Shown one piece after another: positions 1,679 to 49,596 of a stretch of 64,000 nucleotides of DNA. The notes beneath the pieces are model-generated. The model had not been told where the DNA came from and searched no databases. It saw only the letters and a program-made list of their open reading frames with translations. The translations under genes were made by a program, and so were the position numbers. This DNA comes from Terriglobia bacterium (lineage in GTDB: Bacteria > Acidobacteriota > Terriglobia > Terriglobales > Acidobacteriaceae): contig JAVUPY010000064.1 in NCBI GenBank assembly GCA_032252755.1, positions 1 through 64,000 on the forward strand, read 5' to 3'. How positions within the stretch are numbered: the stretch's first letter is position 1; every line of letters begins with the position of its first letter.

Positions 1679-2500
1679 ATGCAGCCAAACCCCTTTACCG
1701 CCCTGAACCAGGCGGTCAGTCAACTGATCACTTCGAACAGTGCCACGTTGCAGGCCACGGGACTCAACATCTTCCGCGGCCTGGCCGTGATCCTGATTGC
1801 CTGGTTCGGGATCAAGTCCGCCCTGTCCGCCTCGCAGGGGCATGGCGGCGGATTCCATTTCGCCAAATTCGCCGACCTGATTCTGATGATCTCCTTCGGG
1901 TTGGGGATGCTGACGTATTACTCCGCACCGATCCCAGGCGTGGGCTACAGCTTCTCGGACCTTGTCACGAAAGAGGCCCAAAACATCTCCAACCAGATCG
2001 AGTCCGACCAGACGCAGCAGATCGCCAACACCATCGTCAACGCGGAGGAGCAGCTTGGGGCGCCTCCCGGCAAGTACAGCATCCTCGAAGACCTGACCTA
2101 CCTTCTGATCGCTGTGATTCTTGCCGCGATGGAGGCCGTAGCCTTCGCCGTCATCGCCTACGGCATGGTCGCTTCAGCGGTCTGCGTACTGATCGGGCCG
2201 ATGTTCATTCCGTGGTTTATCGTGCCGAAGATGGACTGGCTCTTCTGGGGATGGTTCAAAGCATTCCTAGGCTTCAGCTTCTACCAAGTCGTTGCCGCCG
2301 CCTTCATCTTCGTTTTCTCGAAGGTGCTGCTCGGGATGCTGGCCGTCATCGGCCCACTGTCGCTTTCCAATGCCTTCACTATTCTGCCCGCTTTGCTGGT
2401 AACGCTGTTTGTTTGCATCTACGGGCTGATCAAAATCCCGGAGCTGACCGCGTCGATTCTCGGAGGTCGTTCCGGTTCCTGGGTAAACCCACTGGGGTAA
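1679..2500 (+). CDS. trbL: TrbL/VirB6-family membrane protein
   Basis: A 273-residue polytopic membrane protein has about five to six hydrophobic segments (for example around residues 33-50, 60-80, 133-185, 195-215 and 235-258). VirB6/TrbL forms part of the inner-membrane channel of the T4SS. The conserved central region AVIAYGMVASAVCVLIGPMF with the following WFIVPKMDWLFWGW is typical of TrbL-like proteins. It is short for TrbL (often 400 residues or more) because it lacks the long Gly/Ser-rich C-terminal tail. It sits 3 nt after trbJ and 6 nt before trbF. Confidence 0.82.
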   Translation: MQPNPFTALNQAVSQLITSNSATLQATGLNIFRGLAVILIAWFGIKSALSASQGHGGGFHFAKFADLILMISFGLGMLTYYSAPIPGVGYSFSDLVTKEAQNISNQIESDQTQQIANTIVNAEEQLGAPPGKYSILEDLTYLLIAVILAAMEAVAFAVIAYGMVASAVCVLIGPMFIPWFIVPKMDWLFWGWFKAFLGFSFYQVVAAAFIFVFSKVLLGMLAVIGPLSLSNAFTILPALLVTLFVCIYGLIKIPELTASILGGRSGSWVNPLG

Positions 2501-2506
2501 TTCGCC

Positions 2507-3190
2507 ATGACAAAGACGCGAGATCCATTTCCGATCACCGAGGCCGGCCAGAAATTCCTCGAAGCCTATGGGGAGCCGGTCGTGACCAACACGTATTTGA
2601 AGGTTGCCATCTTGGTGCTCGCCGTAGTCTCCAGCATCTGTTTGTTCCTTCTTTACCGGGCCCAGACCGCCGCGCTGCAACTCAAGCCGCTGATTATCTC
2701 CGTAACCGACTCCGGGCGCGGACAGGTGATGCGCTATGACGACTTCCACTCGATTCCTATCGAGCGCGTCAGCAAGTACTACCTGGCACGCTGGGCCGGA
2801 CTGTATTACGGACGCAATCACTCGACTCTGCATCGCGATTTCGCCGAGTCGTTGAACTTCTTCTCCAACGACCTGCAGGGTGCGACGCTCTCCCAGGTTC
2901 GCAAGTCCAATACGCTCGACTCTTTCCTGCTCGACCCCGGCCAGCCCAATGTGGACATCGAGATCAAGGCCGTGATGCTGGAAGACACGCGGCAAGCCCC
3001 GTATCGCGCCCACGTCGAGTTCGAGAAGGTCTTCCACTCCATCGGCGATCAGCAGGAGCAGCGCCGCGAACGCTGGACCGCCAACGTCGTCTACGGCTTC
3101 CGGGATGAGGTTCCCAACCAGATGCTGCTCTCGAATCCGCTCGGCCTTGTCATCAGCTATTGCCGCGAGGACCAGGCATTCGACAAATGA
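2507..3190 (+). CDS. trbF: TrbF/VirB8-family conjugal transfer protein
   Basis: A 227-residue bitopic protein has a cytoplasmic N-terminus, one membrane helix at about residues 28-47 and a periplasmic NTF2-like domain. VirB8/TrbF nucleates T4SS assembly and contacts VirB10. The pattern of a TM segment, then KYYLARWAGLYYG, then a conserved strand near the C-terminus (GLVISYCREDQAF) fits TrbF. It is the last gene of the tightly packed block; 485 bp without a gene follow. Confidence 0.82.
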   Translation: MTKTRDPFPITEAGQKFLEAYGEPVVTNTYLKVAILVLAVVSSICLFLLYRAQTAALQLKPLIISVTDSGRGQVMRYDDFHSIPIERVSKYYLARWAGLYYGRNHSTLHRDFAESLNFFSNDLQGATLSQVRKSNTLDSFLLDPGQPNVDIEIKAVMLEDTRQAPYRAHVEFEKVFHSIGDQQEQRRERWTANVVYGFRDEVPNQMLLSNPLGLVISYCREDQAFDK

Positions 3191-40838: not shown

Positions 40839-41534
40839 CTAGAAAAATGCATCTTGGGCGTCCCCGTTTCTCAGCTGCGGGTGGTAGTCATAGTGAGCGA
40901 TGAGTCTCGTGAACTCCTGCGGCGACGCAACCGCCTGCTGCAATTGATTGTTCTTCCTGAGAGACACAAATAATGCACAAGAGCGTGCCTGGCAGTTGAT
41001 GGACTTGGACGGGTTGAATTCGATATCCGTAAACCCTGCGTACTTGTAGAGACGCTCAAGCCAATCACGGTGCGGATAGATCGCATTGATGTAAAGCCAG
41101 TCGTAGAAGATTGTCTTGGGTTCGAGCGGGAAGGAAAAACCATTGAATTCGAAGCCGATAAGCTTCCCTGATTCCTGTAAGCGCGGATCGCGTTTGGCCT
41201 CCTTGCCCTCAGCCATATAAAGGTCCGTATAAGGGCCGCCTTTCTCAAATACTTTGCTGCCCTGAAAAGCAGATTCCAGCTTTATTTCCTCCATGCCCGC
41301 TTCGCGGACTTTAAGATGGAAAGCGCTTAAATGTTGACCCAGCTTCTCTTCCGACTTCGAAGAGATCTCCAGTAGCGGGTTATAGCCAGCCCGCGCGGCG
41401 GCCTCATGCAAGGCGATGATGTTCTTCTTTTTCTGCACCGGGGCAAAGCCGGGGCTCCAGACAATATTGAAATACTCTTCCCGTACCAGCTCCTGAGTAC
41501 CTTGTTGCGGTATAAAGACGGGCCGTTCAGCCAT
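40839..41534 (-). CDS. NADAR-family antitoxin associated with DarT1
   Basis: This 231-residue protein has the start typical of DarT1-linked NADAR proteins (MAERPVFIPQQG, then FNIVWSPGFAPVQKKKNIIA with NIIALHEAA). NADAR domains remove ADP-ribose from guanine in DNA and neutralise DarT-type toxins. The gene begins 8 nt inside the end of the DarT gene on the same strand, so toxin and antitoxin are co-translated. Assignment rests on recognisable N-terminal sequence and the toxin partner. Confidence 0.82.
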   Translation of the reverse strand: MAERPVFIPQQGTQELVREEYFNIVWSPGFAPVQKKKNIIALHEAAARAGYNPLLEISSKSEEKLGQHLSAFHLKVREAGMEEIKLESAFQGSKVFEKGGPYTDLYMAEGKEAKRDPRLQESGKLIGFEFNGFSFPLEPKTIFYDWLYINAIYPHRDWLERLYKYAGFTDIEFNPSKSINCQARSCALFVSLRKNNQLQQAVASPQEFTRLIAHYDYHPQLRNGDAQDAFF

Positions 41535-42048
41535 TAGGAAGATTCCTTATCAGATCGAGTGGAATTTTCTTCGGCACAAGTATTTCGTACTTTTCCGCCC
41601 GTTGCAGCCGCTTCTGGACGGCTTCGTCGCTCCAATCGGTGCGCGTGTAGAGCACTTCAAAATCGATGATCTTCCTCGCTTCTTCCATAGTATGGATTTC
41701 CACCCCCGCCTTGTTCGATACGTCCGCCGTGAATTTGACGCCGTCCCACAGCAACACATCCGGATGGATCTGCAAGAAGATCGTGTCTCCAATCCGGCCA
41801 TCCGCGCGGGCTACATACTCCATCGGATGCGTAGCCCGGAAACAAAGATGAACGTATGCGTCCATCCCTTTCATACCGTCGGCGTCGCGGCTCCACTCGT
41901 TGCCGCCCGGCGCTGGAACTTCAATCTTCTTTTTTCGAAGTCTTGCTAAAGGGTAAAGCCCGCCATGTTCTCGGATCAGCGGAAGATTTCGGCGATCCGT
42001 AAAGTGGTAAAGCAGCGTAATCCGTTTGAGAGGATCAACTTTGGTCAC
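41527..42048 (-). CDS. darT: DarT-family DNA ADP-ribosyltransferase toxin
   Basis: This 173-residue protein shows the DarT N-terminus (LLYHFTDRRNLPLIREHGGL) and a HLCFRATHPMEYVAR segment; the fold is an ARTC-type ADP-ribosyltransferase that modifies ssDNA with NAD+ and halts replication. It is small, as expected for DarT1. The GTG start at 42048 overlaps the stop of the TrlF-like ORF (GTGA). The antitoxin follows with an 8-nt overlap. Activity would require the partner NADAR protein for immunity. Confidence 0.85.
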   Translation of the reverse strand: MTKVDPLKRITLLYHFTDRRNLPLIREHGGLYPLARLRKKKIEVPAPGGNEWSRDADGMKGMDAYVHLCFRATHPMEYVARADGRIGDTIFLQIHPDVLLWDGVKFTADVSNKAGVEIHTMEEARKIIDFEVLYTRTDWSDEAVQKRLQRAEKYEILVPKKIPLDLIRNLPNG

Positions 42049-42206
42049 GTTTTCGCTCTGATTGGCGGATCGGACTTCTCAATGCGGGAGAGGAACTCTT
42101 CCCAGGGGTCTGAACCTTTATATTGGTCGCTCAGAATCGTGCCGGGAGCATGGATGTGCCGGTCCCATCGATTCCAAAGCGCTCCGCGTGCGTTTGCTGA
42201 ATCCAT
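42045..42206 (-). CDS. Short ORF resembling the N-terminus of TrlF-type PHP/ATPase proteins
   Basis: This 53-residue ORF has a good ribosome-binding site (GTGGAG 8 nt before the ATG at 42206) and ends in a GTGA overlap with darT. Its centre reads WNRWDRHIHAPGTILSDQY, close to the W-x-x-W-D-x-H-x-H start of PHP-domain/TrlF-like defence proteins, but the rest of such a protein (about 900 residues) is missing. It could be a remnant from a deletion that joined the TrlF start to darT, or a small leader. It is too short to be a catalytic PHP domain. Confidence 0.55.
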   Translation of the reverse strand: MDSANARGALWNRWDRHIHAPGTILSDQYKGSDPWEEFLSRIEKSDPPIRAKT

Positions 42207-42371
42207 GTATTGCTCCACGTCCTGCGATCAAAATTGGCGTCTGGCGAAAATCCGACGCATGATGCTACGAGTGCGTTGAAGGCCGTTGCAAGCATTTCGA
42301 TTGCCGGATACCATCGGTAATAACATTTATGGCGTATCGGTAAGAAGAAACAATAACACTTTGAGGTGCTA

Positions 42372-44087
42372 GTGGGGCAGAGCCCGATAGCGTTGCGATC
42401 ATCGCGAGCGATTCAGTTGCCACTATTGGTGCCAACGCGAACTCCTCAGCTCGCCACACTTGAGTTTAAAGGTGTCGTTTACACCAAACGGTGGGTGGTG
42501 GAGCTGCTGCTGGACCTTGCGGACTACAAGTCAGAAACAAATCTCGCGGATGCGGTCGCAGTGGAGCCGGCGGCGGGGAACGGGGCCTTTCTCGGTCCCA
42601 TGATTGAACGCCTGGCGGAATCGTGCCGCAGGTTTAAGCGGCCGCTTTCGGACTGCGGGAGCGCGTTGATTGCCTACGAACTCGACGACGCGAGCGCTGA
42701 GCACGCGCGTGGATTGGCTGCAACTATTTTAAAGAAGCACGGCCTGAAACGGCCGTTAGCCGAGCGTCTTGCGGGTGCATGGGTCCGGACGGGCGATTAT
42801 CTTTTCGATTCAACGACTGTGGAAGCGAATTATGTCATCGGCAATCCACCGTACGTGCGGCTCGAGGACATTCCGGAAGAGATCGCCACGATTTACCGCG
42901 CCGCCTATCCAACGATGCGGGGTCGGGCAGATCTGTATGTCGCGTTCTTTGAAGCGGCTCTCAGGCAACTGAGAGAAGGAGGTACGTGTGCGTTCATCTG
43001 CGCTGACCGCTGGATGCGAAACCAGTACGGTGCCGAGCTACGCGAACTGGTAACTTCCGCCTACTCAGTCGATGTCGTCCTTGAGATGCACAATGCGGAC
43101 GCATTTCATGATGAAGTAGACGCCTACCCTGCTATCACCGTCATCCGCTGCCAGAAGCAAGGATCAGCAGTCGTGGCTAGCGCCGGACCGGAAGTCGAGC
43201 ACGTCCTACCAACAACACTTTCGGCAGCACTGGAGGCGGCTAAGGACGCAAAGCCGATGGTCGTTGCCGAAGGGCTTCGTGTTGCCCGCGTTGAAACGTG
43301 GTTCAAGGGCACAGACCCGTGGCCCTGTCATTCACCTGAGCAGCTCGCGCTTCTCCGCCGACTAGAAGAGCGTTTCCCGGCACTCGAGGTCAATGCGAAA
43401 GTGGGCATCGGTGTTGCGACTGGCAACGACAGCGTTTTTATCACTAAAGACAAACACCTCGTCGAACCGTCCCGTCTTCTCAAGCTAGCTCTGGTCAAGG
43501 ATATCATCGGCGGAAAGATGGATTGGTCCGGGCACTACCTGGTAGATCCCTGGAACAGCGATGGGTTGGTCAGTCTGGACAAATTCACTCGGCTGCAAGC
43601 GTATTTCGAGAAGCACGCGGTGGCCTTGAAAAAACGTCATACCGCCGCAAAGAATCTTCGCAGCTGGTACAAGACCATCGACCGCGTGACACATACCCTT
43701 ACGGCCAAGCCCAAGCTCTACATCGCGGACATCAAGAACGTGCTCGACCCGGTTCTCGACAGCGGCGAAACCTATCCGCACCATAATCTTTATTTCATTC
43801 AGTCGGATGAATGGGATCTCGAGGTACTCGGCGGACTGCTGATGTCGGCGGTCGGGCAGTTCTTTGTTGAGTCCTACGGCGTCCGCATGCGCGGCGGTTA
43901 TCTGCGCTTTCAGGCGCAATATCTGCGACGGATTCGCGTCCCGCCTCCTGGGTCAATATCGAAAGACCAGGCGAAAGAACTGGCGAAAGCTTTCCGCCTG
44001 CGTGACAGGAAGCGCGCAACGCAGATCGCTCTTGAGATATATGGAATCGACGAACAGGAGATGGAGACAGCACTTGGACATCGATAA
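42372..44087 (+). CDS. Type II DNA N6-adenine methyltransferase of the PaeR7I/XhoI type
   Basis: This ~571-residue methyltransferase has an AdoMet-binding region (AVAVEPAAGNGAFLGPMIE) and catalytic motif IV (GNPPYVRLED, ~residue 157). The TRD-like C-terminal half includes WYKTIDRVTHTL and GGYLRFQAQYLRRIR. The next gene is a PaeR7I-family endonuclease, which cuts CTCGAG, so this enzyme should methylate A in that site. GTG at 42372 with GAGG 5 nt upstream is preferred over GTG at 42366. It is transcribed divergently from the DarT/NADAR genes. Confidence 0.9.
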   Translation: MGQSPIALRSSRAIQLPLLVPTRTPQLATLEFKGVVYTKRWVVELLLDLADYKSETNLADAVAVEPAAGNGAFLGPMIERLAESCRRFKRPLSDCGSALIAYELDDASAEHARGLAATILKKHGLKRPLAERLAGAWVRTGDYLFDSTTVEANYVIGNPPYVRLEDIPEEIATIYRAAYPTMRGRADLYVAFFEAALRQLREGGTCAFICADRWMRNQYGAELRELVTSAYSVDVVLEMHNADAFHDEVDAYPAITVIRCQKQGSAVVASAGPEVEHVLPTTLSAALEAAKDAKPMVVAEGLRVARVETWFKGTDPWPCHSPEQLALLRRLEERFPALEVNAKVGIGVATGNDSVFITKDKHLVEPSRLLKLALVKDIIGGKMDWSGHYLVDPWNSDGLVSLDKFTRLQAYFEKHAVALKKRHTAAKNLRSWYKTIDRVTHTLTAKPKLYIADIKNVLDPVLDSGETYPHHNLYFIQSDEWDLEVLGGLLMSAVGQFFVESYGVRMRGGYLRFQAQYLRRIRVPPPGSISKDQAKELAKAFRLRDRKRATQIALEIYGIDEQEMETALGHR

Positions 44088-44793
44088 ACGATTACAGGAA
44101 GCCGTTCAAAGCTACTGGGACGCGCGTGGAAAGAACAAGGAAAAACAGATTGAAGGTGGCAAGATCGATGCTGGAACGCGCGGCGAAGTCACAGGCGGCG
44201 CGCAAATGGGCGCTATGGAGGTCCTTGTTGCTGACATCCTGTCCGATGCCGGGCTGAAAAAACTTGATGTGAAAACGCGCACGGCGCTGGAGCTTCCCGG
44301 TTATTATCGCGCGGAAAAAAAGTGGGATCTGATTGTGGTGTCTGGTGGCCAGCTCGTCACCGCGATGGAATTCAAATCCCAGGTTGGTCCGTCCTTTGGC
44401 AACAACTTTAATAACCGGTCTGAAGAGGCCATAGGCAGCGCGACGGATATTTGGGTCGCATTCCGGGAGGGAAGGTTCGGCAAAACTCCTGCCCCCTTCC
44501 TTGGCTACTTTTTCCTGCTGGAAGACTGCGGCCGAGTGAAGACGCCAGTGCGCAACAAGGAGCCATACTTCAAGGTAGATCCGGTATTCCAGAAGGCGTC
44601 ATACAGCAAACGTTATGAGCTGCTGGCTCGACGCTTGGTGCTTGAACGCGTCTATAGTGCTGCCTGTCTGGTCATGGCCACGAATTCTCCGCGTACCCAG
44701 ATTACTCAACCTGCAGAAGACCTTAACTTTAAGCGTTTCGTAGCGGCGCTCAGAGGGCATGTTGTGACCTTTCTGGGCAGTCAGAAGAAATAG
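44074..44793 (+). CDS. PaeR7I-family type II restriction endonuclease (CTCGAG)
   Basis: This ~239-residue protein closely follows PaeR7I/XhoI: helical start, AGTRGEVTGGAQM-like segment, and a PD-(D/E)xK core with WDLIVVSGGQLVTAMEFK (Asp and Glu-x-Lys), then SQVGPSFGNNFNNRSEEAIG, diagnostic of this family. It would cleave C^TCGAG unless methylated. The TTG at 44074 aligns with the family start and follows GGAG; an ATG at 44041 is in frame. Overlap with the methylase gene is 14 nt. Confidence 0.9.
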   Translation: MDIDKRLQEAVQSYWDARGKNKEKQIEGGKIDAGTRGEVTGGAQMGAMEVLVADILSDAGLKKLDVKTRTALELPGYYRAEKKWDLIVVSGGQLVTAMEFKSQVGPSFGNNFNNRSEEAIGSATDIWVAFREGRFGKTPAPFLGYFFLLEDCGRVKTPVRNKEPYFKVDPVFQKASYSKRYELLARRLVLERVYSAACLVMATNSPRTQITQPAEDLNFKRFVAALRGHVVTFLGSQKK

Positions 44794-44971
44794 CGCGCAA
44801 GCTCCGGCTTCACTCACGTATCCAACGAAGAGCCTCAAACCGCTCGACTGTTTCCTTCGTCGCCGGTGATGGACTTCTGAACACCCACCGCACCCTGTGG
44901 CCGTGTCACTGATGAAGGCATTGACTGTGCGCGACGCAACTCTGGCAATTAAGGATCAAAGGAACCGAGGT

Positions 44972-45481
44972 ATGGCGCAAGACCCACGCATCATCCAGAT
45001 TCTGAGCAGAGCAAAAAAGCTCGCTCAGCAATACCGCACGTTGACGGGAAAGCCTCTTGGCATAACTGGCGAAGTGGCTGAGTACGAAGCCGCCCGCGTT
45101 CTTGGTGTTGAGCTGACGCCTGCGCGACAGGCAGGATATGACGCGCTTGAACGGCGCAACGGAATAATAAGTCGGCTGCAGATCAAGGGACGGTGTCTAC
45201 TTCCCAACTGCAAACCAGGGCAGCGCCTGGGCTCAATAGATATTACGAAGGATTGGGATGCCGTCTTGATGGTTCTCTTGGACGAGAACTTTGACGCCGT
45301 CGAGATCCATGAAGCGGAACGTACCGCAGTTCTTACCGCGCTTTCCGCACCCGGGTCTAAAGCACGAAATGAACGAGGGGCTCTTAGCATCAGCAAATTC
45401 AAGGCCATCGGCAAGTTTCGCTGGCCACAGCCGTCGCGTCCCAAATCTTCGCCGATCCTGCAGCAAAATATCGCACCTTAG
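44972..45481 (+). CDS. Uncharacterised PD-(D/E)xK-like protein (DUF6998-like)
   Basis: This 169-residue protein starts at 44972 behind a GAGG-like site. The sequence GEVAEYEAARVLGVELTPAR, then GYDALERR and RLQIKGRC, gives a D-x(n)-Q-x-K pattern reminiscent of the PD-(D/E)xK nuclease fold. It matches a recurrent uncharacterised family found near restriction and toxin genes; cleavage activity is not shown. It is convergent with the ImmA/IrrE-XRE pair, sharing 4 bp at the 3' ends. Confidence 0.65.
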   Translation: MAQDPRIIQILSRAKKLAQQYRTLTGKPLGITGEVAEYEAARVLGVELTPARQAGYDALERRNGIISRLQIKGRCLLPNCKPGQRLGSIDITKDWDAVLMVLLDENFDAVEIHEAERTAVLTALSAPGSKARNERGALSISKFKAIGKFRWPQPSRPKSSPILQQNIAP

Positions 45482-46458
45482 AGGCGCTCGATGAGCTCCT
45501 CCCAAAAGAAAAACACGTCCCCAAATTCCTCGCCTGCGTTGTCACCTTGATAGGGGCAAAGCATTGCCTCAATTTGTCCGCTCACGTTCGCCAAGTTAGG
45601 AAGGTTTTCCACGCCGCTGTGTATTCCGCCCTCACGGGCCTTGTACACCACTGAACTCGGATCAAACGACTTATTAAAACGGATTGTGTATTCCTCTTCG
45701 CGACAAGCAGGCGAGAGATGCACAGATTGACGTCGATACTTGCGTTCCGCAGGTTGTGATCGAAGCGTTGGGACCTTCGAGAACAGAAGGCCCTGATTTG
45801 CCGCCTTCGTAAGTCTTCTTTCTTCATCCTTCGTTAAACGGTACTTCAACATCCCGGCAACCGCAAAACCGGGATGAGCCGTTGCGAGTCGATAGACAGT
45901 TGCTTCGAAGGATGTGCCAAAGTAAGAAGCCAATGTTTCAACAGCGGACAGGCCGAATCTCCCGTTTGCTCGTCGTTGAAACTGATCCAGCGGCATTACT
46001 AACTCCGAAGCACCCAAGTGACACAGGAGTTCAAGTTCGTTCGCCTCCCTTGAACTCGGATTCGTAATCGCCCTGAACCGAGCACCGCTCGTGCTGTTGG
46101 GGAAAAACGTGTGGACGATCTCGTGTGCAATAGTGAAGACGATCCGAGCCCGAAGGCGATTCGGATTATAGAGAACAGTCCACCCCGAGGGAGTTGGGTA
46201 CAGTGCCGCATCTCGTTTTTCGCTGCGCACCTGGTCCATGTCCATCGGCAGGATCTTGATGCGATTGAGGGAGGCAATGATTTTCAATCGCTCCAACGGA
46301 TCGTCAGGCAGTCCCAAAAACCTGTTGGCTTTTTCGGTCAGAGAGCGAGCCAAATTCACGACCGTCGAACGCGGATCAATCAGTTCTCCGCTCTGCCTAC
46401 AAAGCGAAATAATGTCGGGGTCAGAATAACGCCGACCACCGATGCGTAGAGTATCCAT
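45478..46458 (-). CDS. ImmA/IrrE-family metallopeptidase
   Basis: This 326-residue protein contains the zinc protease motif HEIVHTFF (about residues 111-118) and a downstream LELLCHLGASELVMPLDQF segment with the third ligand region, as in ImmA/IrrE peptidases that degrade partner HTH repressors on DNA damage or phage signal. An N-terminal helical region precedes it. It follows the XRE gene by 2 nt on the same strand, forming a repressor/antirepressor-type pair. Confidence 0.88.
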   Translation of the reverse strand: MDTLRIGGRRYSDPDIISLCRQSGELIDPRSTVVNLARSLTEKANRFLGLPDDPLERLKIIASLNRIKILPMDMDQVRSEKRDAALYPTPSGWTVLYNPNRLRARIVFTIAHEIVHTFFPNSTSGARFRAITNPSSREANELELLCHLGASELVMPLDQFQRRANGRFGLSAVETLASYFGTSFEATVYRLATAHPGFAVAGMLKYRLTKDEERRLTKAANQGLLFSKVPTLRSQPAERKYRRQSVHLSPACREEEYTIRFNKSFDPSSVVYKAREGGIHSGVENLPNLANVSGQIEAMLCPYQGDNAGEEFGDVFFFWEELIERL

Positions 46459-46460
46459 CT

Positions 46461-46907
46461 CTATTTTTGACGGCTTCGTTCACCAGCCATTCTTATGGCC
46501 TGAAGCACGAACCGCCACCCTTCTTTGTCTCTTGGCCTGTTTCCCCTAAAGTTCACTTGCGCAAGCATCTCCACATCAGCCTGCGAAAGCGCGTCATCGG
46601 AAAGAGCAAGCTCCTGTTGAAGCTCCGCTAATCCGGGTGGTAAGTCGCCAGATGACCGCCGCTTCGCTCGCTGCTCCTTCGCTGTGGCATCCTTCAGCAG
46701 GTCGTCCAGCGTGACATCGAGTGCCACTGCAATATTGAAAACGTACTGGATATTCGGCTTGCCTGCTGCCCCGTTTTCCAAATCTGAAATATAGGCCTTT
46801 GAAACTCCGGACTTTTCGGCCAAGTCAGCCAAGGCCCAGTCCTTCCCCTGCCGCAGAAAGCGGATCTTGGCACCCAATTTCTTTAGATCAATCTGCGTGT
46901 CATCCAT
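46461..46907 (-). CDS. XRE-family HTH regulator partnered with ImmA/IrrE
   Basis: This 148-residue protein has an N-terminal XRE domain (AKIRFLRQGKDWALADLAEK, then AYISDLENGAAGKP) and a C-terminal helical part (~90-148) likely to contact the peptidase. Such XRE/ImmA pairs regulate mobile elements and defence operons; cleavage of the repressor releases expression. It is divergent from the 52-residue protein/TIR/caspase operon, with only ~28 bp between its start and the -35 box there, so it may repress that operon too. Confidence 0.85.
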   Translation of the reverse strand: MDDTQIDLKKLGAKIRFLRQGKDWALADLAEKSGVSKAYISDLENGAAGKPNIQYVFNIAVALDVTLDDLLKDATAKEQRAKRRSSGDLPPGLAELQQELALSDDALSQADVEMLAQVNFRGNRPRDKEGWRFVLQAIRMAGERSRQK

Positions 46908-46935: not shown

Positions 46936-46965
46936 TTGACCTCGTAGCTTTGACCATCGCATAAT
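46936..46965 (+). promoter_or_regulatory. Sigma-70-like promoter of the TIR-caspase operon
   Basis: A -35 box TTGACC (46936-46941) and a -10 box CATAAT (46960-46965) are spaced 18 bp. A second TTTGACC copy lies between them and might be part of an operator. The ATG inside the -10 region is not a gene start. The downstream gene starts ~70 nt later at 47036. Confidence 0.6.
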
Positions 46966-47035
46966 GGCGACGGGTTGTATTTTAGTGATAATACCGATTT
47001 ACGAAGTCATACGCAACTCTGAAAAGAAGGCAGAA

Positions 47036-47194
47036 ATGGCAAACAAGAAACATAAAGTGCAGTTTGAGGCTCATCGCACCGTCCGTGAAGAAGTACCCGT
47101 AAAGTTCAAGACTCGTGATGGCGAGCGGGTCTCCTTCGAGGCCAAGAAGAAAGTGAAAGAGCCGGTAAAGGTCAAATTCTTGGCAAAGGATTAG
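47036..47194 (+). CDS. 52-residue Lys/Val-rich protein made of two 21-residue repeats
   Basis: A basic protein built from two tandem units, residues ~8-28 and ~32-52, each V-x-F-E-A...V..E..V.VKF...D. Eleven of 21 positions are identical and most others are conservative, with a GER linker. It is predicted to form small beta-strand pairs. The ATG at 47036 has an AAGGCAG-like site and lies downstream of the promoter. It is the first gene of the TIR/caspase/TIR operon, so it may be a regulator, a substrate or an inhibitor of the caspase; no function is established. No family name is known to me. Confidence 0.7.
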   Translation: MANKKHKVQFEAHRTVREEVPVKFKTRDGERVSFEAKKKVKEPVKVKFLAKD

Positions 47195-47274: not shown

Positions 47275-47652
47275 ATGGCTAAGAAACGAATCTTCATTGC
47301 ATTTGCGGTTGAAGACAAAACCTATCGGGACTTCCTTGTCGGGCAGGCAAAGCACGCGAAAACTCCATTCGACTTTATAGATATGTCAGTTAAAGAACCT
47401 TGGGATGCACAATGGAAAACAAACTGTAGAGCGCGGGTTAAGGGGTGCGACGGCGCTATCGCGCTGATTTCGAAGAACACGGCCAAAGCAGACGGAGAGC
47501 TCTGGGAAATAAAGTGTGCTGATGAAGAAGCAATACCTACCATGCTGATGTGGATCAACGGCGACCGCCCAGGGCTTCCGTCATCACTGAATGGCAGACG
47601 CGTAAACATCTGGAGTTGGGATAACCTTGAATCCTTCATCGAGAAGCTTTGA
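47275..47652 (+). CDS. TIR-domain protein (ThsB-like)
   Basis: This 125-residue single-domain TIR-like protein has strand 1 KRIFIAFAVED, then GQAKHAKTPFDFID, KGCDGAIALIS and GELWEIKCADEE; the last carries the Glu expected for NAD+ cleavage. It resembles the small TIR (MTH538/DUF1863-type) ThsB proteins that make cyclic ADP-ribose signals on infection. A paralogue lies 3' of the caspase gene. The stop overlaps the region just before the caspase start. Confidence 0.82.
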   Translation: MAKKRIFIAFAVEDKTYRDFLVGQAKHAKTPFDFIDMSVKEPWDAQWKTNCRARVKGCDGAIALISKNTAKADGELWEIKCADEEAIPTMLMWINGDRPGLPSSLNGRRVNIWSWDNLESFIEKL

Positions 47653-47660
47653 CACACACC

Positions 47661-48608
47661 ATGAGAAAAGCCCTTGTCGTCGGTATTAATGACTATCCGA
47701 ACGCTCCGCTGCGCGGGTGCGTTAACGACGCAGTTGCGATCAGCAACATTTTCGCCACCCATGGTGATGGCGCACCCAATTTCGGAATCAAACTCATAAC
47801 CTCGCCCGGCGAAGCCGTCACAAGGTCAAGGCTTAGAGGCGAAATCGAGACTCTATTTTCTGGCGATCCGGATATTGCGCTGCTGTACTTTTCGGGGCAC
47901 GGCCTGATCACAAGTCTTGGCGGCTTTATTGTCACGACGGACTTCAAGAAATATGATGAAGGCGTTTCAATGGATGACATCCTCAACCTAGCGAATCACT
48001 CCAAAGCGAAGGACAAAATTATCATCCTTGATTGCTGTCATTCTGGTGCATTCGGGTCTCCGACGATTACAGGAAGTAATGTCGCCCAGCTCTCAGAAGG
48101 TTTATCTGTACTGACAGCTAGCCGAGATTCGGAATCAGCTCTGGAGATAAATGGCTGTGGTGTCTTCACCGCGCTCGTCGTCAGTGCTCTACAAGGCGGC
48201 GCGGCAGATTTACGAGGCCACATAACCCCTGGCGGCATCTACGCCTATGTCGATCAAGCCTTAGGGCCATGGGACCAACGGCCAATATTCAAAACGAACG
48301 TAACTCGCTTCACATCCCTCAGAACTATTACGCCGCCTGTGTCACACGCGACGCTTAGGAAATTGATTGAGTATTTTCCCAGACCACAGGACGAGCACAA
48401 GCTTGACCCTTCCTATGAGTTCACTGAACCGACCGCCGATCCGAAACGAGTGGCAATAATGAAAGATCTTCAAAGATTTGTCAGCGTGGGCTTGGTAGTG
48501 CCGGTGAATGAAGAACACATGTATTTTGCGGCCATGAATTCCAAATCATGCCGGTTGACCGCCGTGGGTTTTCAATACTGGCGACTAGTTAAGGAAAAGC
48601 ACCTTTAG
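47661..48608 (+). CDS. Caspase-like peptidase (C14 family), candidate Thoeris-type effector
   Basis: This ~315-residue protein has a caspase core: MRKALVVGIND start, His80 in LLYFSGHG and Cys126 in ILDCCHSGAFG. The C-terminal ~75 residues (LRKLIEYFPRPQDEHK onward, ending in GFQYWRLVKEK) form a separate helical/winged-helix-like domain that could bind a signal. TIR proteins flank it. A TIR-plus-caspase organisation is known as a caspase-effector form of Thoeris, where a TIR-made nucleotide activates the protease. A TTG at 47649 is an alternative start. Confidence 0.85.
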   Translation: MRKALVVGINDYPNAPLRGCVNDAVAISNIFATHGDGAPNFGIKLITSPGEAVTRSRLRGEIETLFSGDPDIALLYFSGHGLITSLGGFIVTTDFKKYDEGVSMDDILNLANHSKAKDKIIILDCCHSGAFGSPTITGSNVAQLSEGLSVLTASRDSESALEINGCGVFTALVVSALQGGAADLRGHITPGGIYAYVDQALGPWDQRPIFKTNVTRFTSLRTITPPVSHATLRKLIEYFPRPQDEHKLDPSYEFTEPTADPKRVAIMKDLQRFVSVGLVVPVNEEHMYFAAMNSKSCRLTAVGFQYWRLVKEKHL

Positions 48609-48662: not shown

Positions 48663-49076
48663 ATGGCACTAAAACTTTTCATTAGCTTTGCGGCTGAGGA
48701 CATGCGGTTTAGAGATTTGTTCGTTGGGCAGGCAAAAAACAGCGATACACCTTTCGAATTTCGAGACATGTCGCTTCAGGAGCCCTTCGACTCCAAGTGG
48801 AAGACGCGATGCCGTGACAAGATCAAGCAGTGCCACGGATTCGTAGCTCTCCTTAGCAAGAAGACATGGCGAGCGGAAGGTGCCCGATGGGAAATCCAGT
48901 GCGCTTATGAAGAAGACTTACCGCTACTTGGGATACACATTCATAGGAACAACAAAGGGGCGATACCGCCTGAACTCGCCGGGTGTAGGGTCGTGGAATG
49001 GCACTGGAACTCTATTGGGAACTTCATACGACGTGTGAATAGTAAGAGGTCGGCATGGGATCGGTTTCTCGACTAA
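48663..49076 (+). CDS. Second TIR-domain protein (ThsB-like)
   Basis: This 137-residue TIR-like protein is clearly paralogous to the one at 47275: LKLFISFAAED, GQAKNSDTPFEFRD, QCHGFVALLS and GARWEIQCAYEED, with the same WEI.CA.EE motif. It has a short extra C-terminal tail. It lies 54 bp after the caspase gene and is probably in the same transcript. Two TIR proteins may recognise different triggers, as seen in multi-ThsB Thoeris loci. Confidence 0.82.
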   Translation: MALKLFISFAAEDMRFRDLFVGQAKNSDTPFEFRDMSLQEPFDSKWKTRCRDKIKQCHGFVALLSKKTWRAEGARWEIQCAYEEDLPLLGIHIHRNNKGAIPPELAGCRVVEWHWNSIGNFIRRVNSKRSAWDRFLD

Positions 49077-49562: not shown

Positions 49563-49596
49563 GAGGTCGTCGGTTCGATCCCGATCAGGTCCACCA
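49563..49596 (+). other. 3' end of a tRNA gene (T arm, acceptor strand, CCA), candidate att site
   Basis: The T stem-loop GTCGG-TTCGATC-CCGAT is followed by CAGGTCC, discriminator A and an encoded CCA ending at 49596. The matching 5' half (starting with GGACCTG) is absent upstream, so this is only the tRNA end. Tyrosine integrases commonly use this part of tRNA genes, and the sequence on the left is accessory. The amino-acid identity cannot be told. The partner repeat was not found within the window. Confidence 0.65.

Follow-up and report, generated by a model that had tools for sequence, protein, structure and literature searches.

A family of small basic two-repeat proteins accompanies unrelated conflict operons in Acidobacteriaceae, among them a type IV Thoeris operon

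Results

Organization of the locus

The window, i.e., the whole 64,000-nucleotide stretch of DNA that was analysed, contains an operon whose first gene encodes a basic 52-residue protein, with genes for a TIR protein, a caspase-like protease and a second TIR protein following 3' of it (Table 1). The placement of the small gene at the head of a caspase operon in the first-pass annotation is therefore correct. A TIR gene lies directly before the caspase-like gene, the arrangement by which type IV Thoeris is recognized, and judged from its genes the TIR-caspase-TIR operon is a system of this known kind. On the other side of the small gene, adjacent HTH and M78 protease genes resembling capH and capP border the immune operon. 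A defence island spanning 41527-45481 adjoins the operon. Beyond the second TIR gene, a 25-base copy of a tRNA 3' end was found; its only other copy detected in the genome (at most 1 mismatch) ends an intact tRNA-Ala(GGC) on a different contig, so that the copy in the window may mark the edge of an integrated island.

Table 1 Features of the window around the small gene.
Feature	Position	Strand	Evidence
DarT-like gene	41527..42048	-	PADLOC 1.6e-12
Type II methyltransferase and restriction enzyme	42366..44793		5e-187 (methyltransferase); 1.7e-79 (restriction enzyme)
Methyl-directed restriction enzyme	44897..45481		2.6e-53
CapP-like M78 metalloprotease	45478..46458	-	PADLOC capP 9.8e-20 (69 bits); Pfam Peptidase_M78 4.3e-11
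CapH-like HTH repressor, divergent	46461..46907	-	PADLOC capH 4.4e-12 (45 bits); Pfam HTH_3 1.1e-12
Sigma70-like promoter TTGACC-18-CATAAT	46936..46965	+	Counterpart at the same place in L049
Inverted repeat TCGC-N6-GCGA over the -10 element	46957..46970	.	Also in L049; candidate CapH operator
Basic protein of 52 residues with two repeats (first operon gene)	47036..47194	+	Repeat, codon pattern, 20-member family
TIR protein, ThsB-like, Glu78 kept	47275..47652	+	PADLOC ThsB 7.7e-05; Pfam ThsB_TIR 0.0028, under cut-off
Caspase-like protease (C14), type IV Thoeris effector	47661..48608	+	Pfam Peptidase_C14 8.3e-16
Second TIR protein, ThsB-like	48663..49076	+	Pfam ThsB_TIR 1.1e-11
25-base copy of a tRNA 3' end	49572..49596

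In another locus of the family, L049, the sequence TTGACA-18-CATAAT occupies the equivalent site before the gene of a 71%-identical small protein that faces a similar CapH/CapP pair. Since a simple scan of the stretch found 3 sigma70-like sites where 2.4 were expected, support for the promoter comes from this conservation in two loci. The inverted repeat over the -10 element may serve as a CapH operator; the same loose TCGC-N6-GCGA-type pattern occurs at four further places in the window.

The 52-residue protein is translated and under selection

A Shine-Dalgarno-like AAGG stands 5' of the ATG at 47036. An alternative, longer ATG frame opens at 46964; however, 47036 is the likely start because the relatives in loci L001 and L002 begin at the equivalent site. 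The protein has a pI of 10.1, with 16 lysine plus arginine versus 8 aspartate plus glutamate residues, and is thus as highly basic as the first-pass annotation had described it. The two 21-residue units with 11 common positions reported there were reproduced exactly: residues 8-28 and 32-52 (offset 24) have V, FEA, V, E, V, VKF and D in common, i.e., 11 identical residues out of 21, a number reached in none of 20,000 composition-preserving shuffles with free offset and position, the best shuffle giving 10.

Comparison with the L001 relative (85% identical) yielded 4, 4 and 26 differences at codon positions 1, 2 and 3, and comparison with the L049 relative 11, 10 and 25. The third codon position dominates likewise in the pairs L054/L055 (1, 2, 8), L051/L052 (1, 2, 10), L028/L053 (7, 6, 17), L013/L026 (9, 6, 31) and L026/L029 (10, 9, 30). 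This third-position excess in close pairs means that the 52-residue protein is translated and under purifying selection. It is a real, selected protein.

The protein probably folds as a long beta-hairpin

AlphaFold, run with three sequences, predicted two 21-residue strands (residues 5-25 and 31-51) in one long hairpin at a pLDDT of 87.5 and a pTM of 0.40, and the same hairpin was predicted for the Verrucomicrobia member at a pLDDT of 88.0; pTM was 0.40-0.43 across both models, and one of five runs for the first and four of five for the second stayed under a pLDDT of 50. The strands alternate: over the 20 members, even positions have a mean hydropathy of +1.1 and odd positions one of -2.0. Lysine or arginine also occurs on the hydrophobic face, at position 14 in 16/20 members and as K38 in 18/20. 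According to these models, the protein is probably one long amphipathic beta-hairpin, which may self-associate via its conserved V/F/A face.

The Foldseek search of the predicted structure that had been proposed earlier gave no match at E <= 0.001 in the PDB or among viral models. In a further structure comparison the best match was a pore stem (Z 3.4, rmsd 7.1, 52 aligned), and none of the matches to pore stems reached significance. A histone-like protein surfaced at Z 2.7 in the structure search, and for this reason the DNA-binding arm of HU was compared as well. This candidate was rejected: hhalign scored 14.2 against 20 HU sequences, a value equalled or exceeded by 4 of 30 column shuffles (best 16.1).

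A family of 20 members

The profile search for homologues suggested in the first-pass annotation was productive and yielded 20 members in 20 genomes, 19 from Acidobacteriaceae, the family of the window, and one from Verrucomicrobia (L002). A scan of genome contigs had two relatives, L001 (Acidobacteriaceae) and L002. Profile searches matched 7/396 genomes of the window's phylum (E <= 0.01; 5 kept), 11/200 of its family (10 kept) and 19/397 of its order (E <= 0.001; all kept); a repeat search in the phylum matched 4/297 genomes and added no new member. In the phylum of the Verrucomicrobia genome, 2/387 (1 kept) and 1/288 genomes matched. Whole genomes of phyla beyond these two were covered by the close-relative scan alone. 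The members follow the pattern VxFxAxKxV...VxFxT-(K/R)xG-xxVxFxAxKxV...VxFxA. Loci L008, L009, L021 and L032 were rejected, as their hits are pieces of longer or stop-containing frames that lack it. Among the viral contigs, plasmids and phages searched there was no relative, three plasmid records lying at chance level (E 5-8). Low-complexity filtering weakens the window protein as a query without hiding it (self-match 1.4e-27 with and 3.6e-36 without the filter).

Scanning 13 of the 20 members against Pfam, NCBIfam and PHROGs returned no accepted match. Nine Pfam families appeared at E <= 1, each in 1-3 of the 13, the best being ribosomal_L24 (0.0078), RRM_3 (0.022), Complex1_LYR (0.039), ComJ (0.05) and Bac_DNA_binding (0.092; 1/13 members); the curated cut-offs were compared for the two matches of the window member, and both were missed. 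The best PHROGs match was 0.018 (one member) and the best NCBIfam match 0.056 (13 members scanned). A known antitoxin domain was found in none of the 13 (Pfam, NCBIfam). PADLOC gave no match for the small protein of the window, the one member scanned, and a PDB profile search retrieved a designed SH3-like barrel alone, at E 0.84. Among the papers listed in literature searches, which went by description rather than by sequence, none gave an account of such a protein, though one that does not name it may exist. The family is apparently undescribed, and it and its range of partners appear to be new.

Eight members precede PIN genes

In eight of the 20 loci (L013, L026, L027, L028, L029, L051, L052, L053) the small gene immediately precedes a PIN gene, and the two overlap or touch; Pfam confirmed the PIN domain in the three scanned (L013, L026, L052). 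The small gene is open in all eight, while an uninterrupted PIN frame spans the full query in six: in L053 it is split between two frames, and in L029 it lacks the usual start and the matched C-terminal end. A small gene that stays intact where its PIN neighbour is broken fits a harmless partner. Identities of small protein and PIN protein correlate with r 0.45, as high a value arising in 84/5000 permutations, L053 and L029 being entered by the matched PIN piece only.

The upstream regions of these eight loci share no long operator, and their palindromes were dismissed as an autoregulation signal because no clear operator emerged. What recurs is a TG-N-TATCAT block a few bases before the small-gene ATG, exact in 4/8 (L028, L051, L052, L053) and looser in L013 and L029; it suggests a promoter of the extended -10 type and a message with almost no leader.

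The arrangement resembles VapBC-type toxin-antitoxin modules in the position of the small gene, and it fits a dedicated antitoxin job for these members. Unlike VapBC, the family has no match to a known antitoxin domain in the 13 members scanned, and the window member is basic throughout and has no PIN neighbour.

Neighbours of the other twelve vary

The neighbours of the remaining twelve members differ from locus to locus (Table 2). Nine of the twelve lie beside or within a named or candidate defence system, with L055 counted by likeness, and L049 lies beside CapH/CapP. The L011 vicinity further holds a kinase gene (weak PD-T4-6 match, 3.6e-06), an ATPase gene (Ppl match, 5.5e-22) and phosphatase and von Willebrand-like genes named by eye. 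The YegP-like, DUF3892 and DUF4236 proteins, the latter two flanking the L011 member, are likewise small, have no known function and are encoded next to conflict genes; in contrast to these, the 52-residue family has none of the three among its Pfam matches.

Table 2 Genomic neighbours of the twelve members without a PIN gene.
Member	Neighbourhood of the small gene
Window	Type IV Thoeris operon, facing CapH/CapP
L002	Downstream of a CBASS operon (CD-NTase and E2) whose first gene is HTH-M78; two unmatched genes between
L010, L024	Divergent from IetA-IetS; in L010 with an extra small frame between
L025	Flanked by an HTH gene and a ThsB TIR gene (PADLOC 2.7e-124)
L012	Upstream of a PD-T7-4 gene (2.7e-83), 86 bases away
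L050	Flanked by a divergent HTH gene and an LmuA/RTasMBL-like gene (PADLOC 1.7e-13, without a Pfam match)
L054	Follows a PDC-M48B metallo-beta-lactamase gene (1.4e-28)
L055	Same metallo-beta-lactamase gene in front, by likeness to L054
L049	CapH/CapP faces the small gene; nothing recognized directly after it; some 1.6 kb beyond, a same-strand PD-Lambda-2_C-like gene (3.8e-28)
L011	Between DUF3892 and DUF4236 genes
L001	No partner recognized; one neighbour scanned, no match

As a baseline for PADLOC, 10 positions were chosen arbitrarily in the window's own genome and the longest frame was taken at each; some of these frames may not be genes. Three of the ten matched at E <= 0.001, two of them at about 1e-24 and 85 bits (helicase- and ATPase-like), so a lone PADLOC match is weak evidence. 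The strong matches, ThsB (412 bits), IetA (281 and 274), PD-T7-4 (277) and the cyclase (285), have no counterpart in this baseline. The window caspase (71 bits), capP (69), L054 (98) and L050 (49) are near or under it, and their assignments therefore lean on gene order too.

Several of these loci show further features. Both IetAS promoter regions (L010 12531-12565 and L024 9850-9884) carry an inverted repeat of identical spacing, GGACTA-N23-TAGTCC, a candidate IetAS operator. The additional small frame between the small gene and IetA in L010 (12649-12855, ~68 aa) looks DUF2188-like by eye. In the Verrucomicrobia CBASS operon (L002 3234-4186), a 243-aa protein with no Pfam or PADLOC match stands where the effector would be expected, together with a 74-aa protein that appears membrane-like by eye and has no PADLOC match.

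Partners change on the family tree

PIN-linked members occupy one side of a branch (support 97/91; 96% of 200 bootstrap trees), a clustering of the PIN label equalled in none of 500 label shuffles. On the other side the partner differs between most tips, and L054 and L055 alone share both partner and position. The IetAS member of L024 groups with L011 and L050 (97/94), away from that of L010; that the two IetAS members are not sisters speaks for a target independent of the partner. The tree comprises 54 columns and gives no resolution at 9 of its 17 inner branches and most deep forks, and from so short an alignment the number of partner changes cannot be counted.

The family does not follow the caspase

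The window caspase matches 64 plasmid records, of which 14 loci were examined; their caspases are 44-66% identical to that of the window. In 12 of the 14, the annotation places a TIR gene immediately 5' of the caspase gene, L065 being without one there and L073 having it divergent; the record of L066 starts just before the TIR gene. Caspase residues H80 and C126 are kept in 8/8 aligned proteins and TIR residue E78 in 7/7. We take caspase His80/Cys126 and TIR Glu78 to be the catalytic residues.

Within ~3.5 kb of the caspase gene, the small-protein family is absent from all 14 plasmid loci examined out of the 64 matching records, L066 among them being cut short upstream. Conversely, 19 of the 20 genomes with a family member have no caspase homologue at E <= 1e-8, the exception being the window's own genome. 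The small protein thus does not recur with TIR-caspase pairs as a Thoeris component would. A role as specific substrate or inhibitor of the caspase, put forward in the first-pass annotation, is not supported on these two counts. Most homologues have neither a TIR nor a caspase neighbour, the very distribution that was named there as speaking against it, and for this reason the caspase-specific reading fails.

Among the plasmid loci, the Proteus type IV Thoeris of L060 has two genes in front of it (2228-3002), one of DUF6338 and one for a GYxP-rich small protein of 59 aa, which does not match the family profile. On the Enterococcus plasmid of L065 (620-2250), HTH, ImmA/IrrE and VapC-family genes are annotated before the caspase gene, making it another neighbourhood in which type IV Thoeris occurs together with controllers of this sort and a PIN-type toxin.

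Discussion

Type IV Thoeris consists of a TIR protein and a caspase-like protease, which is switched on by N7-cADPR produced by the TIR protein (Rousset et al. 2025, as cited in PMC12847820 and PMC13373217). The window shares the TIR-caspase pair and the conserved TIR and caspase residues with this system, and its second TIR gene also occurs in some plasmid copies, e.g., L062 and L064. It differs in the small protein, which is in the window operon and in none of the 14 plasmid loci opened. Taken with the PIN branch and the changing partners, we consider it very probable that the family is a plug-in module of conflict operons and not a part of the caspase pathway; that it serves the caspase as a specific partner is unlikely.

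How the module acts can be proposed only tentatively. Our leading reading, at less than even confidence, is a nucleic-acid-binding regulator of the antitoxin or repressor type that has been plugged into many conflict operons. Here, a basic protein of ~50 residues with two VxFxAxKxV...VxFxA/T units would form one beta-hairpin and self-associate through its V/F/A face, its basic residues would bind operator DNA or its own mRNA, and it would restrain or tune the operon carrying it by repression or neutralization. In the PIN clade it would be the dedicated upstream partner of the nuclease, and in the other clade it would be wired into many unrelated immune operons. The nucleotide- or DNA-binding option of the first-pass annotation would form part of this explanation. 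We favour a small basic nucleic-acid-binding regulator because it covers both clades, and the unrelated and changing partners of the defence clade point to a shared target.

Two sets of known regulators bear on this proposal. CapH and CapP are DNA-damage controllers of adjacent immune operons (PMC13373217). In the window and L049 alike, an HTH gene and an M78 gene are oriented away from the small gene, and a promoter is conserved; unlike these known regulators, the small protein is encoded by a gene under their likely control. By analogy with the known pair, cleavage of the window CapH is expected to be activated by single-stranded DNA, and the small gene, the first to face the pair, would then be induced by single-stranded DNA during infection. 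The second set offers a published parallel: the same source describes CapS as an immune-operon repressor and its relative VapS as antitoxin of a PIN nuclease (PMC13373217). Like the present family, CapS/VapS and VapKSC place one protein family both in immune operons and as partner of a PIN nuclease, but they are STAS-domain proteins with a kinase, whereas the 52-residue family has no such match in the 13 members scanned. Against a regulator stand the lack of an acceptable match to a nucleic-acid-binding family in Pfam, NCBIfam, PHROGs or PDB profiles and the position of the small gene downstream of defence genes in L002, L054 and L055. A second repressor also seems redundant where the window, L049, L050, L025 and L002 already have an HTH regulator.

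The main rival, which we regard as unlikely, is an independent small effector against phage or stress: a cationic amphipathic hairpin induced with the operon under DNA damage that would by itself attack membranes, nucleic acids or some component of the phage, and so could be combined with any system. Its best support comes from L049, with no recognized gene directly after the small gene, and from L001 with no recognized partner, to which the change of partners on the tree can be added; yet L049 is not clearly alone given its PD-Lambda-2_C-like gene. In structure, the hairpin stems of pore proteins come nearest, though none of them matches significantly; such stems would match any long hairpin, and conserved lysines break the hydrophobic face. 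A yegP-like gene of unknown function following CapK/CapS in 57/443 cases (PMC13373217) is a precedent for such an arrangement. Unlike a toxin, the small gene remains intact in loci with a damaged PIN gene. A broader version, equally unlikely in our view, would make the one hairpin a general immune plug-in that accompanies Thoeris, CBASS, IetAS, PD-T7-4, metallo-beta-lactamase systems and PIN toxins, works alone or through one common effect on nucleic acid or a phage product, and is moved independently, in some cases under DNA-damage control.

A classical antitoxin that binds the adjacent effector protein in each system would suit the position before PIN in 8/8 of that clade, the weak co-inheritance with PIN and the finding that PIN breaks first. 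We nevertheless hold direct inhibition to be rather improbable, as the defence neighbours are unrelated to each other (TIR, subtilase with ATPase, cyclase with E2, PD-T7-4, metallo-beta-lactamase type) and vary between close relatives. The protein might also sense a phage product, or act as bait for one, and help to trigger the adjoining system; this agrees with a distribution independent of partner but is improbable, several partners, e.g., PIN, not being known to need a separate trigger. Very improbable is a caspase-specific substrate, inhibitor or sensor: the small gene heads a caspase operon, its 16 K/R might be cut by a protease of basic specificity and L010 and L024 carry the protease system IetAS, but most neighbours are not proteases and among the 20 genomes with a member, the family and the caspase coincide in the window's genome alone.

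Annotation often skips tiny genes in defence operons, and the present family can serve as a marker for finding new operons of this kind. Its mode of action can be tested directly in the PIN clade. That one family tracks many unrelated systems suggests a shared step, be it regulation, restraint or triggering, which the systems known so far do not explain.
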